DNA of 64,000 nt from Streptomyces sp. Q6 (lineage in GTDB: Bacteria; Actinomycetota; Actinomycetes; Streptomycetales; Streptomycetaceae): NCBI RefSeq assembly GCF_036967205.1, contig NZ_CP146022.1:2852001-2916000 (forward strand). The letters are read 5' to 3'. The translations under genes and the position numbers were made by a program. How positions within the stretch are numbered: the first letter of the stretch is position 1; each line of letters opens with the position of its first letter. Below, piece after piece: positions 10,537 through 27,309 of this stretch. The notes below the pieces were generated by a model. It made no database searches, was not told the origin of the DNA, and saw only the letters and a program-made list of their open reading frames with translations.

Positions 10537-12701
10537 CCCCCTTCCCCTCTCCTGCCGGCTCCCCCTGGCCCGTCCGCCCCTTCCGCCCCGCCCGCTCGCC
10601 CCTTTCGTTCTCCCTCACTCACGACAGCGACCGCTCCGTCCCGGTCGGTCCGCAGTACCGCCGCGCCCCGGTCCCGCAGTGCCGCGACCGTGCGCGGGGC
10701 GGGGTGGCCGTAGGGGTTGTCGGCGCCACAACTGATGAGCGCGAGCCGGGGCGCGGCCCGGCGCAGCAGCTCCGGGTCCTGGTACGCCGAACCGTGGTGG
10801 GCGACCTTGAGCACGTCCACCGGCGGCAGCCCGGCCCCCGCGCCGGATCTCAGCAGGGCGCGCTGCGCTGCCGGTTCGAGGTCGCCGAGGAGGAGCAGCG
10901 TCAGGCCCGCGGTGCGCACCAGCAGCGTGACGCTCTCGTCGTTCGGGCTGTCGGGCGCCGGTCCCGGGCGGGCCGCCGGCCACAGCACCTGCCAGTCGAG
11001 CGGTCCCGCCCGGCGCCGCTCCCCGCCACCGCCCTGGTCACCGGGATGCCGCGCGCCGCCGCGAGGGCCCGCACGGACGCCGCCTGGTCCGCCGGCCGCG
11101 CGAACCCCGTCGTCTCGATCGCCCCGACCGAACGCCCCCGCAGCACTCCCGCCAGCCCCGCCACATGGTCCGCGTGGAAGTGCGTGAGCACCACGAGCGG
11201 AACGGTGGTGATGCCCAGCGACCGCAGACACCGGTCGACGAGCAGCGGGTCGGGCCCCGCGTCCACCACCACCCCCGCCCCCGCGCCCGCCGCGAGGACG
11301 AGCGCGTCGCCCTGCCCCACATCGCACATGACCATGCGCCACCCCGGCGGCGGCCATCCGGTGACGATCCGGGCGAGCGGCGCCGGCTGCACGAGCACCA
11401 GGATCAGCACGAGCACACATATCCCGCTGATCCAGGGCGACTTGAGCACTCTGCGCCCTACGACGACGAGCACGGCCGTACCGAGTGCGAGCAGCGCGCC
11501 TCCGCGCCAGCCGCCCGGCCAGTCCACCCCGCTGCCCGGCAGCGCGGCCCCGGTGCGGGCGATGTCCACGATCCAGCCCGCGGGCCAGCCCGCGCACCAG
11601 GCCAGGAACTCGGCCACCGGCATCGCCACCGGCGCCGCCGCGAGCGCGGCGAACCCGAGCACCGTCGCCGGAGCCACGGCGAACTCCGCGAGCAGATTGC
11701 ACGGCACCGCCACCAGGCTCACCCGCGCCGCGAGCACGGCGACCACCGGCGCGCACACGGCCTGGGCGGCAGCGGCGGCCCCGAGCGCCTCGGCGAGCCG
11801 CGCCGGAACACCGCGCCCCCGCAGCGCCGCGCTCCACCGAGGAGCCAGCGTCAACAGCGCCCCGGTGGCGAGCACCGACAGCAGGAATCCGTAACTCCGC
11901 GCCAGCCAAGGGTCGTACACGACGAGCAGCAGCACGGCCGTGGCGAGCGCCGGGATCAGGGATCTGCGGCGCCCGGTGGCGACGGCGAGGAGCGCGATCA
12001 GCCCGCACGACGCCGCGCGCAGCACGCTCGGTTCGGGTCGGCAGACCACGACGAAGCCGAGGGTGAGCACCCCGCCCAGGAGCGCCGTCGTTCTGAGCGA
12101 CAGGCCGACGCGGGGCGCGATACCACGCCGCTCGACGAGGTGCGCTGTGCCGGGTGGGCCGATCAACAGGGCCAGCAGAATCGTGAAGTTGGCACCGCTG
12201 ACAGCCATGAGGTGGAGCAGATCCGTCGCCTGAAAGGCCGCGTGCAGCTCGGGTGTGACCCGGGCCGTGTCGCCGACCACGAGGCCGGGCAGCAGGGCCC
12301 GCGCGTCCGCCGGCAACCCGTCCGTCGCCTCCCTCAGCCCCGCGCGCAGGGTCCCGGCCAGGCGCTGCGGCCCGCTCGGCGCACCGATGACGCGCGGCCG
12401 CTCGTCCTGCCCGACGCGCAGCACCGCGGCGATCTTCTCACCGTCCCTCAGCGGGGGCGCGAGCCCGCCACGGACCCACAACCGGGTGCTCGGCAACAGG
12501 GACAACCAAGAGGAGGCGGGGGAGGAAGCGGAGGAGGAGACGAGGGAGGAAGCGCCGGGCGAGCCAGCCCGATCGGCCGGCCCTGGCTCGCCAGTGACTC
12601 CACCGACCCAAGTCGCTCCACTGCCTCCCGGGCCTCCAGTGGCTCCACTGGCTCCAAGGCCTCCAGTGGCTCCAGTGCCTCCACTGACTCCACTGCCTCC
12701 C

Positions 12702-19651: not shown

Positions 19652-19872
19652 GGCGTCAGGGTACCGCAGCCCTCAGGCGGGCCGCGACGGGCTTCCGTCC
19701 GCCCCACCGAGGGCCAAGGGTTACTCCGCGTACCGCCCGCTATCGGGGCAACACAAATACCGGGCGGCGTCTAGATAACGGCGAGATAACTCAAACCTCG
19801 TACTGGCTGGTATTCATCGACCTAGAGTGCGGGCTGTGGGTCCACTGTGCCGAACCATTCGGAGTCGCCCCC

Positions 19873-21126
19873 ATGAACCCTCGAACGTCGAACCATCTGA
19901 ACTCCCTTAACACGCTGCGGAGTTCAGGCACCACTAGAAGTAGCCGCCGCAGAACAACGGGGGTGTTGAGTGCGGCGGCACTCGCCCTCATACCCGTGGT
20001 CGTGGTCACAGGGAGCGACGCCTTCCGGGCGGCCCTCGACTTCACCACGGGCGTGCTGTCGCTGGTCTCCCTCACGGCGTCCGTCGTGTGGGGCCTGGTC
20101 GCGTCCGACCGTCTGTTCCTGACCTCACGGCAGCGGCTGCTCGCCCAGGCCGTGCACCGGGCCACCGCCGTCGGCTCGATCGGGTTCCTGCTGCTGCACG
20201 TCAGCGTGAAGCTGGCGCTCGCCCACGTGACGCTCATCGGCGCGCTGATCCCCTTCGGGACGGGCGTCGCCGGCAGCAGCGGCCTGATCGGCCTGGGCGT
20301 CCTCGCGGGCCTCCTGATGGTGGCCACCGGCGTCACCGGCGCGCTGCGCAGCTCGATGGCCTCCCCGGCCCGCCTCGCCGCTCGCTGGCGGGCGACCCAC
20401 ATGCTCGCCTACCCGGCCTGGTGCATGGCCCTCGTACACGGCCTGTACGCGGGCCGCGCCCCGAAGACGTACGTGGTCGTCCTGTACTGCCTGTGCCTGC
20501 TCGCCGTCGCCGGCGCGATGGGGCTGCGGGCGGCGCCGCTGTCGGTCAAGCGCAAGGTGGCGGCGCGCGTCCTGGAGTTCCTGGACCGCGGCCCCCGCGC
20601 GCCCCGCGACGTGGCCGAGCAGCCGCTGCCCGCCACCCAGCCGCCCACGCCCGCCAGGCCGGCCGCGGACGAGCGGGCCAGGCCCGCGCCGGCCCCGGCC
20701 GGAGTCGGCTTCGCGGCCGCCTACCGCGCGGTCTCCGCCGCTCCCCGCGCGGAGGCCCCCACGCAATCGCTGCCCTACGTGGATTACGTGGTACCGGCGC
20801 AGACCTCCGCCATGGAGGCCATGGAGGCCATGGAGGCAGCGCCCACCCAGCGCTGGCCGGCCCCGTCCCCGCCGCCGCCCGCCGAGGCGCCCCCCTCGGC
20901 GTACGACCCGCCGTACGACACCCCGTATGGAGGCGTGCCGGCGTATCCGCCCACCTACGGAGAGAACACGAACACCGGCACCTACGAGAGCGCCTACCAG
21001 AGCATCTACGAAGGCACTTATGAAGGCGCCTACGAAGAAGGCGATCCCCCGACCGAACCGCTCCCCGGCCCCTTCCAGGCACCCACGTCCGGTGAGCCAT
21101 GGACCACGCCCTACGGAGGCGCGTAG
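19873..21126 (+). CDS. Six-helix bis-heme (ferric reductase/NOX-like) membrane protein with Pro/Tyr-rich tail
   Basis: 417 aa. Six hydrophobic helices lie at about residues 30-50, 60-78, 98-119, 134-156, 174-193 and 196-218. Histidines H95/H109 (spacing 14) and H176/H189 (spacing 13) have the same spacings as the two heme-ligand pairs of ferric-reductase/NADPH-oxidase domains, so two stacked b hemes are likely (inference from spacing). No FAD/NAD domain is fused. Instead, a ~200-residue cytoplasmic tail is rich in Pro, Ala and Tyr, with MEA triplets and YxxxYE repeats (YESAYQSIYEGTYEGAYEEG). It overlaps the next gene as TAGTG, so the NuoF-like protein is its probable electron donor. Annotators may simply call it hypothetical or cytochrome b-like. 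Confidence 0.85.
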   Translation: MNPRTSNHLNSLNTLRSSGTTRSSRRRTTGVLSAAALALIPVVVVTGSDAFRAALDFTTGVLSLVSLTASVVWGLVASDRLFLTSRQRLLAQAVHRATAVGSIGFLLLHVSVKLALAHVTLIGALIPFGTGVAGSSGLIGLGVLAGLLMVATGVTGALRSSMASPARLAARWRATHMLAYPAWCMALVHGLYAGRAPKTYVVVLYCLCLLAVAGAMGLRAAPLSVKRKVAARVLEFLDRGPRAPRDVAEQPLPATQPPTPARPAADERARPAPAPAGVGFAAAYRAVSAAPRAEAPTQSLPYVDYVVPAQTSAMEAMEAMEAAPTQRWPAPSPPPPAEAPPSAYDPPYDTPYGGVPAYPPTYGENTNTGTYESAYQSIYEGTYEGAYEEGDPPTEPLPGPFQAPTSGEPWTTPYGGA

Positions 21127-22700
21127 TGAACACGGCGCTGCCCGACGTCCCCGAAGTCCGCGTCGTCGGCCTTCCCCAGCTCACTTCGGGGTTCGACCTC
21201 GTGGAGCGCCTCGACCTCGACATGCACCTGAAGGTCCACGGCCCGCTGGAACCCCTGGCGGGCGAGCAGCTCGCCCGGCTGGCCCAGGCGGTGTCGCTGC
21301 GCGGCCGCGGCGGCGCGGGCTTCCCCTTCGCCAAGAAGCTGCGCGCGGTCGCAGAGGCGGCGATCCGGCGCGGTGTGCGCCCCGTGGTCGTCGTCAACGG
21401 CAGCGAGGACGAGCCCGCCTGCCGCAAGGACACCGTCCTGATCAACCGGGCCCCGCACCTCATCCTGGACGGCGCCCTGCTGGTCGCGGAGGCGCTCGGC
21501 GCCCGCACCCTGATCGTGGGCGTGACCCGCGACTCCACCGAGGCCTCGATGCAGGCGGCGCTCGCCGAGCGCGGCCTCACGAACCGCCGCAACGCCCCGC
21601 TCCGCGCGCGCGTGCAGCGCAATCCCGTACGGATGGTGACCGGTGAGTCCTCGGCGCTGATCCGCTCCGCGGACGGCGGCCCGCCCAAGCCGCCCGGCCG
21701 CAAGGTGCGCGCCTCCGACTCCGGGGTCGGCGGCGCCCCGACGCTCCTGTCCAACGCGGAGACGTTCGCCCAGCTCGCCGTCGCCGCCCGTACGGGCCCC
21801 GAGCGCTTCTGCCGCACGGGACTGCACGACGAGCCCGGCACGATCCTGCTGACGCTCTCCGGGGCGGTCGCCCGGCCGATGGTCCTCGAAGTGCCCTCCG
21901 GCGTCCCGCTGCGCTACGTCCTTCAGCTCGCGGGCGCTCCCCCGCTGCCCCAGGGCGTCCTGACGGGCGGCTATCACGGCAAGTGGCTCGACGGGGTCGG
22001 GGCGCAGGACGCGATCGTCTCCCGGGCCTCCCTGGAGGCGTGCGGCGGCGCGCTGGGCGCGGGCGCGATCCTGCCGATCGGGCCCGACACCTGCCCGCTC
22101 GGCGAGTCCCTGAAAGTCGCGCAGTGGCTGGCGTCCGAGAGCGCGGGCCAGTGCGGCCCCTGCTACCTCGGGCTGCCGGCGGCGGCACGCGGCCTGGAGG
22201 ACGTCCTGAACGGCGGCGGCCCCACCGCCCTGGAGGCGCTGCGCGAGGTCACCCGCGCGGTGAAGCGGCGCGGCGCATGCAAGCACCCCGACGGTTCGGC
22301 GGCGTTCATCGAGTCGTCGATCTCGGCCTTCACGGACGATCTGGCCGCGCACGTCCTGGGCGCCGGGTGCGGTCGGCCGGTGCGCGGCGTGCTGCCGCTG
22401 CACACGCAGGCCCCGGCGAGCGCGGCGCCGAGCGGCAAGCGCCTCGCCGTCGACTGGACGCTGTGCCAGGGCCACGGCCTGTGCGCGGACATCGCGCCGG
22501 AGCTGCTCCAGCTCGGTCCGGACGGGTTCCCCACGGTCGCGGAGGCGGCGGTACCGCGCTATTCGGAGGCGAACGCGGTGCGCGCGGTGCGTCGCTGTCC
22601 CGCGCTGGCGCTGCGCATCGAGGAGGACCCGGCGGCGACCCCGCCCCGTCCCGTCCTGCCGCCGGCGCTGCCCCCGGGCCGCAGCCGGGCCCGCAGGTAG
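21126..22700 (+). CDS. NuoF-like FMN/NADH-type oxidoreductase fused to a C-terminal ferredoxin
   Basis: 524 aa. Residues 20-320 resemble the 51-kDa NADH-dehydrogenase flavoprotein (NuoF): glycine-rich RGRGGAGFP (59-67), FMN loop VNGSEDEPACRKD (about 85) and an SLBB-like region. The iron-sulfur region has C343, C346 and C385, but the first canonical Cys of ESCGxCxPC is Ala (A340). From residue 440 there is a single-cluster ferredoxin, C447-xx-H450-xx-C453 and C491-P, as in actinobacterial [3Fe-4S]-type P450 ferredoxins. GTG 21126 overlaps the previous stop, implying translational coupling. No other complex I subunit is nearby, so this is not respiratory complex I. Predicted to pass electrons to the bis-heme partner. 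Confidence 0.9.
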   Translation: MNTALPDVPEVRVVGLPQLTSGFDLVERLDLDMHLKVHGPLEPLAGEQLARLAQAVSLRGRGGAGFPFAKKLRAVAEAAIRRGVRPVVVVNGSEDEPACRKDTVLINRAPHLILDGALLVAEALGARTLIVGVTRDSTEASMQAALAERGLTNRRNAPLRARVQRNPVRMVTGESSALIRSADGGPPKPPGRKVRASDSGVGGAPTLLSNAETFAQLAVAARTGPERFCRTGLHDEPGTILLTLSGAVARPMVLEVPSGVPLRYVLQLAGAPPLPQGVLTGGYHGKWLDGVGAQDAIVSRASLEACGGALGAGAILPIGPDTCPLGESLKVAQWLASESAGQCGPCYLGLPAAARGLEDVLNGGGPTALEALREVTRAVKRRGACKHPDGSAAFIESSISAFTDDLAAHVLGAGCGRPVRGVLPLHTQAPASAAPSGKRLAVDWTLCQGHGLCADIAPELLQLGPDGFPTVAEAAVPRYSEANAVRAVRRCPALALRIEEDPAATPPRPVLPPALPPGRSRARR

Positions 22701-22756: not shown

Positions 22757-22768
22757 TTCTCATTACTG

Positions 22769-22841
22769 TGGAGCTAAGGAGAATTGAACTCCTGACCTCC
22801 TGCATGCCATGCAGGCGCTCTACCAACTGAGCTATAGCCCC
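22769..22841 (-). tRNA. tRNA-Ala (GGC), copy 1
   Basis: 73 nt. The acceptor stem is GGGGCTA/TAGCTCC with discriminator A. The D-arm is AGCTCAGTTGGTAGAGC. The anticodon stem-loop CCTGC-ATGGCAT-GCAGG gives anticodon GGC. The T-arm contains GTTCAATTC. CCA is not encoded. Identical to the copy at 27237-27309. Confidence 0.97.
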
Positions 22842-27207: not shown

Positions 27208-27236
27208 CTTCGGTTCCTGTGAACCGGAACTTCCTG

Positions 27237-27309
27237 TGGAGCTAAGGAGAATTGAACTCCTGACCTCCTGCATGCCATGCAGGCGCTCTACCAACTGAGC
27301 TATAGCCCC
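27237..27309 (-). tRNA. tRNA-Ala (GGC), copy 2
   Basis: Identical over all 73 nt to the tRNA at 22769-22841, with a few matching flanking bases (about 81 bp in total). Anticodon GGC; CCA not encoded. Confidence 0.97.

Follow-up and report, generated by a model that had tools for sequence, protein, structure and literature searches.

Two adjacent genes in Streptomyces sp. Q6 probably form a split transmembrane electron exporter, in which a six-helix membrane cytochrome would receive electrons from a separate NuoF-like flavoprotein fused to a ferredoxin. The pair lies on the forward strand of a 64,000-nucleotide stretch of the 8.95-Mb genome (the window; G000:C1:2852001-2916000). This reading has its basis in sequence and phylogeny, namely the two parts, four invariant histidines and a conserved pairing; the cofactors and heme content, the donor (NADH or NADPH), the direction of flow, the docking of the two proteins and the outside acceptor are what we infer.

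The first gene (19873-21126) codes for a 417-residue cytochrome b-like membrane protein, and the second for the NuoF-like flavoprotein-ferredoxin fusion, of 524 residues if translated from GTG (21126-22700) or 533 residues if translated from ATG (21099-22700). A preliminary description of the locus had both open reading frames and their overlap right, but the ATG start that it adopted is probably not the one used. Orthologous stretches from 10 same-genus genomes (18 loci, some of them one gene fetched twice) carry a stop codon between the two candidate start positions, and GTG at 21126 is therefore the more likely start. The sequence TAGTG would then combine the stop of gene 1 and the start of gene 2 in a one-base overlap, and a Shine-Dalgarno-like GGAGG, read from the sequence, precedes this GTG at 21115-21119. 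A Pfam scan of seven neighbours returns DegV, LeuRS, GT87, MFS, an HTH regulator, a phosphatase and one protein without a match. As proposed earlier, no complex I subunit, including NuoE and NuoG, is found among these seven, nor is an apbE or FMN-binding gene; the only ApbE and FMN_bind matches in this genome lie near 1.51 Mb, and the gene pair is at 2.87 Mb.

The gene 1 product has a supported bis-heme architecture of the ferric-reductase/NOX type, with the hemes themselves predicted. An AlphaFold2 model of residues 1-236 (mean pLDDT 87.4, pTM 0.80) contains helices that fit six membrane passes. Two histidine pairs on two of these helices, with spacings of 14 and 13 residues, stand in the register of known heme ligands, and all four residues (H95, H109, H176 and H189; codons at 20155-20157, 20197-20199, 20398-20400 and 20437-20439) are invariant in 34 of 34 alignment rows, compared with 16 of 34 for H118. 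An HMM alignment of the family profile to the Streptococcus pneumoniae NADPH oxidase, SpNOX, places the four histidines in exact register with its ligands (positions taken from PMC11564096), with a weak score; H95 aligns with the inner-heme histidine of SpNOX TM3. The helices, histidines and spacings of the preliminary description are thus borne out. Its pairing of H95 with H109 and of H176 with H189 is not, as by the SpNOX register the ligand pairs should instead cross the helices, with H95 and H176 predicted to hold the inner heme and H109 and H189 the outer heme. With helix ends set by hand from the model, the cytosolic segments contain 18 lysines and arginines and the outer segments 4, and both termini should therefore be cytosolic. 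Neither outcome that would have counted against the earlier proposal was seen: the placement of the histidines, judged indirectly from the SpNOX register and the topology, does not contradict it, and the two genes co-occur, as described below.

Similarity searches with this protein give low scores. Its sole Pfam match is Ferric_reduct (PF01794; E 0.22, 12.1 bits, below the cut-off of 28), a profile search with the core finds no family at E≤0.01, and Foldseek alone returns nothing at E≤0.001. In the family, 24 of 34 members match PF01794 at E≤0.01 (best 6.3e-11); the window protein itself stays below threshold. In structural comparison SpNOX is the best match, with STEAP and b561 within about one Z unit. 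In SpNOX (8qt6/8qta) the FAD/NADPH domain is part of the one polypeptide, whereas the donor here would be a separate FMN/Fe-S/ferredoxin protein. In agreement with the earlier observation, Pfam detects no FAD/NAD domain after the membrane core; its place is occupied by a low-complexity tail of 182 residues (20578-21123), rich in P, A, E, T, G and Y and predicted to be cytosolic. The stretch that follows the core ranges from 7 to 376 residues in 11 members of the window clade defined below. A NOX identity for gene 1 was ruled out by the absence of the fused domain, and an MsrQ identity by a score of 12.3 bits against the NCBIfam cut-off of 130 and by the lack of MsrP among the seven neighbours.

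Gene 2 was correctly recognized as a NuoF-like protein joined to a ferredoxin. It contains the 51-kDa FMN/NADH-binding fold of NuoF (Complex1_51K, 21288-21776, 2.1e-30), as well as an SLBB match just below the Pfam cut-off (5e-6; 26.7 bits versus 27), an NADH_4Fe-4S domain (22113-22352, 7.7e-15) and a CxxHxxC...CP single-cluster ferredoxin (Fer4_15, 22446-22619, 1.7e-13). At the NADH_4Fe-4S site C352, C355 and C394 are kept, and Ala349 occupies the position of the first NuoF cysteine. That cysteine is absent from all 68 NuoF-like family rows (63 Ala, 5 Ser) and present in 56 of 58 NuoF-type rows, the other two lacking the motif. C332, which is conserved throughout one 26-row alignment, was considered as a relocated fourth ligand; it was dropped because two rows of a second 26-row alignment lack it (L080, Ser; L081, Thr). 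The family thus departs from NuoF and from HydB of electron-bifurcating hydrogenases in lacking the first of four cluster cysteines, and gene 2 further departs from both in carrying its own C-terminal ferredoxin, with no NuoE or NuoG among the scanned neighbours. The possibility that gene 2 is a stray complex I NuoF was ruled out by this missing cysteine together with tree placement. The ferredoxin motif residues are C456, H459, C462 and C500-P, and the nearest solved proteins by sequence are a cytochrome P450 51 chain and a ferredoxin (8amp). The same CxxHxxC(x)nCP motif is given for [3Fe-4S] ferredoxins that serve bacterial P450s in a 2018 Chem Sci paper (PMC6237146); the window ferredoxin differs in being fused to an NADH-dehydrogenase-type flavoprotein, next to a membrane cytochrome and not next to a P450.

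Comparison with 41 relatives, 25 of them of the same genus, bears out the expectation that the two genes travel together. Both window-type genes are present in 18 of the 25 same-genus genomes, neither in seven and one alone in none (Fisher p 2e-6, uncorrected for shared ancestry), a pairing that exceeds chance in this set. The cuts that define window-type (below 1e-30 for the gene 1 protein, P0001, and below 1e-140 for the gene 2 protein, P0002) were set after the results had been viewed, and "neither" includes one genome with a weaker, ApbE-type pair (G003) and one that is 79% complete with a partial NuoF-like match (G001). The genes are adjacent at 18 of 19 window-type loci, the exception, G008, having them on different contigs. 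Across 396 genomes of the phylum, a NuoF-like gene adjoins 23 of the 24 best cytochrome matches on the same strand, among the matches listed; this set was cut at E≤8.8e-44 after the scan had been viewed, and the exception (G359:C8) has no listed neighbour. Conversely, a cytochrome adjoins 24 of the 38 NuoF-like matches of at least 390 bits, again among the matches listed. A sample of the best 80 matches to the NuoF-like query, unbiased as to the cytochrome, comprises 25 family loci (380 bits or more) and 55 NuoF/HydB-type loci; a cytochrome adjoins 14 of the former, is absent from eight and is cut off by a contig end in three (L066, L068 and L079), and adjoins none of the latter. The closest named loci to the window NuoF-like protein, among the matches listed, are from Streptomyces.

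Gene contexts divide the NuoF-like family into two branches. In loci L025-L144, family membership was set at 380 bits or more, with L057 and L058 (about 318 and 294 bits) added by hand. A same-strand cytochrome lies within 1.5 kb in 49 of 68 family rows, which is not an unbiased frequency, as L025-L059 were picked for cytochrome or NuoF-like matches. ApbE lies within 1.5 kb in 30 of these 49 rows, and a P450 or Rieske match within 5 kb in none, with P450 matches just past that limit, on the other strand, in L028 and L071 (5.2 and 5.6 kb). The 19 family rows without a cytochrome include 12 with a P450 or Rieske match, three at contig edges and four with neither; the 58 NuoF-type rows have no cytochrome, ApbE or oxygenase. 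Among the neighbours, Pfam confirms three P450s, three Rieske oxygenases and one ApbE. An 80-row tree, drawn with a midpoint root and including 11 of the 58 NuoF-type rows after a score filter, is divided by a branch with 100/97 support. One side holds all 50 cytochrome-linked rows (the window included) together with the three contig-edge rows; the 27 rows on the other side are 16 family members without a cytochrome and the 11 NuoF-type rows. Within the cytochrome-linked side, a 14-row clade (100/99) coincides exactly with the set of NuoF-like proteins that carry a fused ferredoxin, the window and 13 others. No ApbE match is found in the flanks of those 13, of which L066 and L068 have short flanks, and among the 18 pair-bearing same-genus genomes six lack any ApbE match and seven any FMN_bind match. 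The window variant therefore seems to be independent of flavinylation.

The claim that this pair belongs to no described system is not supported. According to Meheust et al. 2021 (eLife, PMC8238504), there are 1797 "MsrQ-like" (PF01794) flavinylation clusters, mostly actinobacterial, and 31 of them contain a NuoF-like protein (PF10589), with NAD(P)H proposed as the cytosolic donor. These clusters share with the window a PF01794-type six-helix bis-heme protein and a NuoF-like NAD-side protein, and for them too electron transfer across the membrane, driven by NAD(P)H, has been proposed. They differ in being flavinylation-associated, as a rule containing apbE together with a gene for an FMN-binding protein. 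ApbE was not found in the window-clade flanks examined, and in that clade the NuoF-like protein carries the ferredoxin as a fusion. Of the split electron-transfer proposal, the bis-heme architecture and the NADH-side partner are supported, and because the general pairing is already in print, in one sentence of PMC8238504, novelty narrows to the variant: the fused ferredoxin and missing ApbE link of the window clade, the three-cysteine site of the NuoF-like family, and the cytochrome-free branch found mostly beside P450 or Rieske oxygenases. A search of the open-access literature did not find a fused-ferredoxin variant without an ApbE/FMN-binding partner, the three-cysteine site or the oxygenase-linked sister branch, and guessed S. 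coelicolor locus tags for the pair led to no open-access paper.

A direct repeat, ATAAC-N6-ATAAC, lies upstream of gene 1 (19775-19790) and may be a regulator site. It occurs once in the whole window and is present, within a conserved block, in 12 of 14 orthologous Streptomyces upstream regions, the window included; the window contains no iron-box or Rex-type operator, even when up to 3 mismatches to the consensus are allowed. Several genes adjoin related pairs elsewhere. Lipoprotein_15 lies just downstream in two divergent Streptomyces loci (L032 and L033) and is present in all 18 pair-bearing same-genus genomes, as well as in four of the seven without the pair. A thioredoxin-like protein and a DsbD/CcdA-like gene (DsbD match of 23.9 bits, below the 27.1 cut-off) adjoin the pair in L048; DUF1996 is linked in L032, L033 and L072, and DUF4142 in L071. 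None of the candidate outside partners (Lipoprotein_15, thioredoxin-like, DUF1996, DUF4142) is linked to the window pair. At 19 of the 30 ApbE-linked loci, an open reading frame directly upstream of the apbE match has [ST]G[AG]S as its very last residues, against a background of 23 of 3937 open reading frames of at least 60 codons in the same loci, the 19 included. Most of these upstream frames code for a single hydrophobic segment and a tail of low complexity rich in S, T, G and P, and the one examined has no Pfam match. The sequence [S/T]GA[S/T] is the published ApbE target (PMC11334425; PMC8238504), and the products of these frames may be domain-less flavin carriers.

In the proposed exporter, NADH would reduce the FMN of the NuoF-like domain, and electrons would travel by way of the atypical Fe-S site with its three cysteines to the CxxHxxC ferredoxin in the same chain. 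This ferredoxin would dock at the cytosolic face of the gene 1 protein and reduce the inner heme b (H95 and H176), from which electrons would reach the outer heme b (H109 and H189) and an acceptor at the outer face, for which Fe(III), O2, a protein or a flavin are candidates. NOX-type hemes are usually supplied by a fused flavin domain, and other feeds for such a core include quinone and a free flavin reductase; here the pair would do the job of a NOX with a separate complex-I-type NADH module and a ferredoxin in place of the fused FAD/NAD domain. Reduction of a ferredoxin by the NuoF-like protein, the first half of this path, finds support in the oxygenase-linked branch, and the outward exit of electrons, its second half, finds support in the cytochrome branch linked to ApbE. 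Counting against it are the uncertain cluster site and the potential of this type of ferredoxin, which can be high.

The same parts could be arranged as an NADH:menaquinone reductase, in which electrons would pass from NADH through FMN, Fe-S and heme b to a membrane quinone; the pair would then be a dehydrogenase of respiration and not an exporter. PMC8238504 regards MsrQ-like proteins as homologues of MsrQ, which it describes as a quinone-binding subunit, the weak NCBIfam match of gene 1 is to MsrQ, and Ni_hydr_CYTB is matched by one of the 34 gene 1 family members (E 0.007). Sister loci, however, link the cytochrome to ApbE, a modifier of extracytosolic proteins, and a quinone acceptor is on balance unlikely. 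An enzyme that passes electrons to O2 and releases superoxide at the outer face, as a split NADPH oxidase would, agrees with SpNOX being the best structural match with its four ligands aligned. This appears improbable given that the NOX-defining fused domain is absent, that relatives are linked to ApbE instead, and that STEAP and b561 score nearly as well.

Both NuoF and ferredoxins can run in either direction, so the flow might be reversed, from an outside or quinol donor through the hemes to ferredoxin or NAD+. Such a direction is very improbable, since the oxygenase-linked relatives would require reduced ferredoxin made with NADH, and the seven scanned neighbours of the window pair include no donor gene. 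Lastly, the genes may be co-transcribed without forming one machine, the gene 2 ferredoxin serving soluble P450s, as its P450-partner motif would allow, and the cytochrome being fed by another donor. The 100/97 branch that sets cytochrome-linked rows apart from oxygenase-linked ones, and the lack of a P450 or Rieske match within 5 kb of any of the 49 cytochrome-linked rows, make separate functions very improbable.

A broader reading of the family around the exporter is, in our judgement, evenly poised between right and wrong. A branch of the NADH-input subunit of complex I would have lost one cluster ligand and turned into an NADH:ferredoxin reductase of general use in Actinomycetota, feeding soluble P450 or Rieske oxygenases in one of its branches and a NOX-type bis-heme core in another. 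In the window clade, where the ferredoxin would have been fused on and there is no link to a flavin transferase, the exported electrons would go to an acceptor that is not ApbE-flavinylated. A modular arrangement, in which a complex-I-derived NADH protein with its own ferredoxin supplies the NOX-type heme core, would illustrate how the export of electrons across a membrane can be rewired, and would provide Streptomyces with a defined outward electron route. Because one cluster cysteine is missing throughout the family, and because its oxygenase-linked and cytochrome-linked members fall into separate branches, this idea is directly testable.

A small ORF with the exact C-terminal sequence [ST]G[AG]S lies just upstream of apbE in 19 of the 30 ApbE-cytochrome loci, which are the family rows with a cytochrome and ApbE both within 1.5 kb. 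Among all ORFs of at least 60 codons in the same loci, this exact ending occurs in 23 of 3937, a count that includes the 19. Examples are encoded at L025:14428–14727 and L035:12582–12893, and the remainder are found in L027, L028, L030, L031, L038, L039, L042, L043, L049, L054, L057, L074–L078 and L080. Most of the encoded proteins carry a hydrophobic stretch and a low-complexity tail that terminates in the motif. The motif, located at the extreme C-terminus of the small proteins, resembles the published ApbE flavinylation motif, and FMN_bind has no match in the tested stretches with small ORFs among L025–L043. The small proteins are candidate domain-less flavin carriers.

Other genes are also linked to the cytochrome/NuoF-like pair in relatives. 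Two divergent Streptomyces loci, L032 (gene at 11348–12364) and L033, contain a Lipoprotein_15 gene, coding for a secreted repeat of unknown function, downstream of the pair, together with a nearby DUF1996-type gene; in Herbidospora (L072), a DUF1996 gene precedes the pair. A 20-kb stretch of genome G033 (L025) contains three cytochrome/NuoF-like pairs, one ApbE and a two-component system; the module is locally expanded there.

In the window, a direct repeat, ATAAC-N6-ATAAC (19775–19790), and a conserved promoter block reaching to position 19872 lie upstream of the cytochrome gene. Of 14 orthologous upstream regions, 12 have the repeat. Further along, two minus-strand tRNA-Ala (GGC) genes (22768–22841 and 27236–27309) flank 4.4 kb of sequence that encodes GT87 and MFS proteins and an MmyB-type regulator; this arrangement may have arisen by insertion or duplication at a tRNA gene.

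NuoF-like proteins also occur free of the cytochrome. Rieske oxygenase hits lie within 5 kb of such proteins in L029, L040, L041, L062, L063 and L081, and P450 hits in L060, L064, L083, L084, L087 and L092. The cytochrome-free proteins may represent a family of NADH:ferredoxin reductases, descended from complex I, that serves oxygenases.
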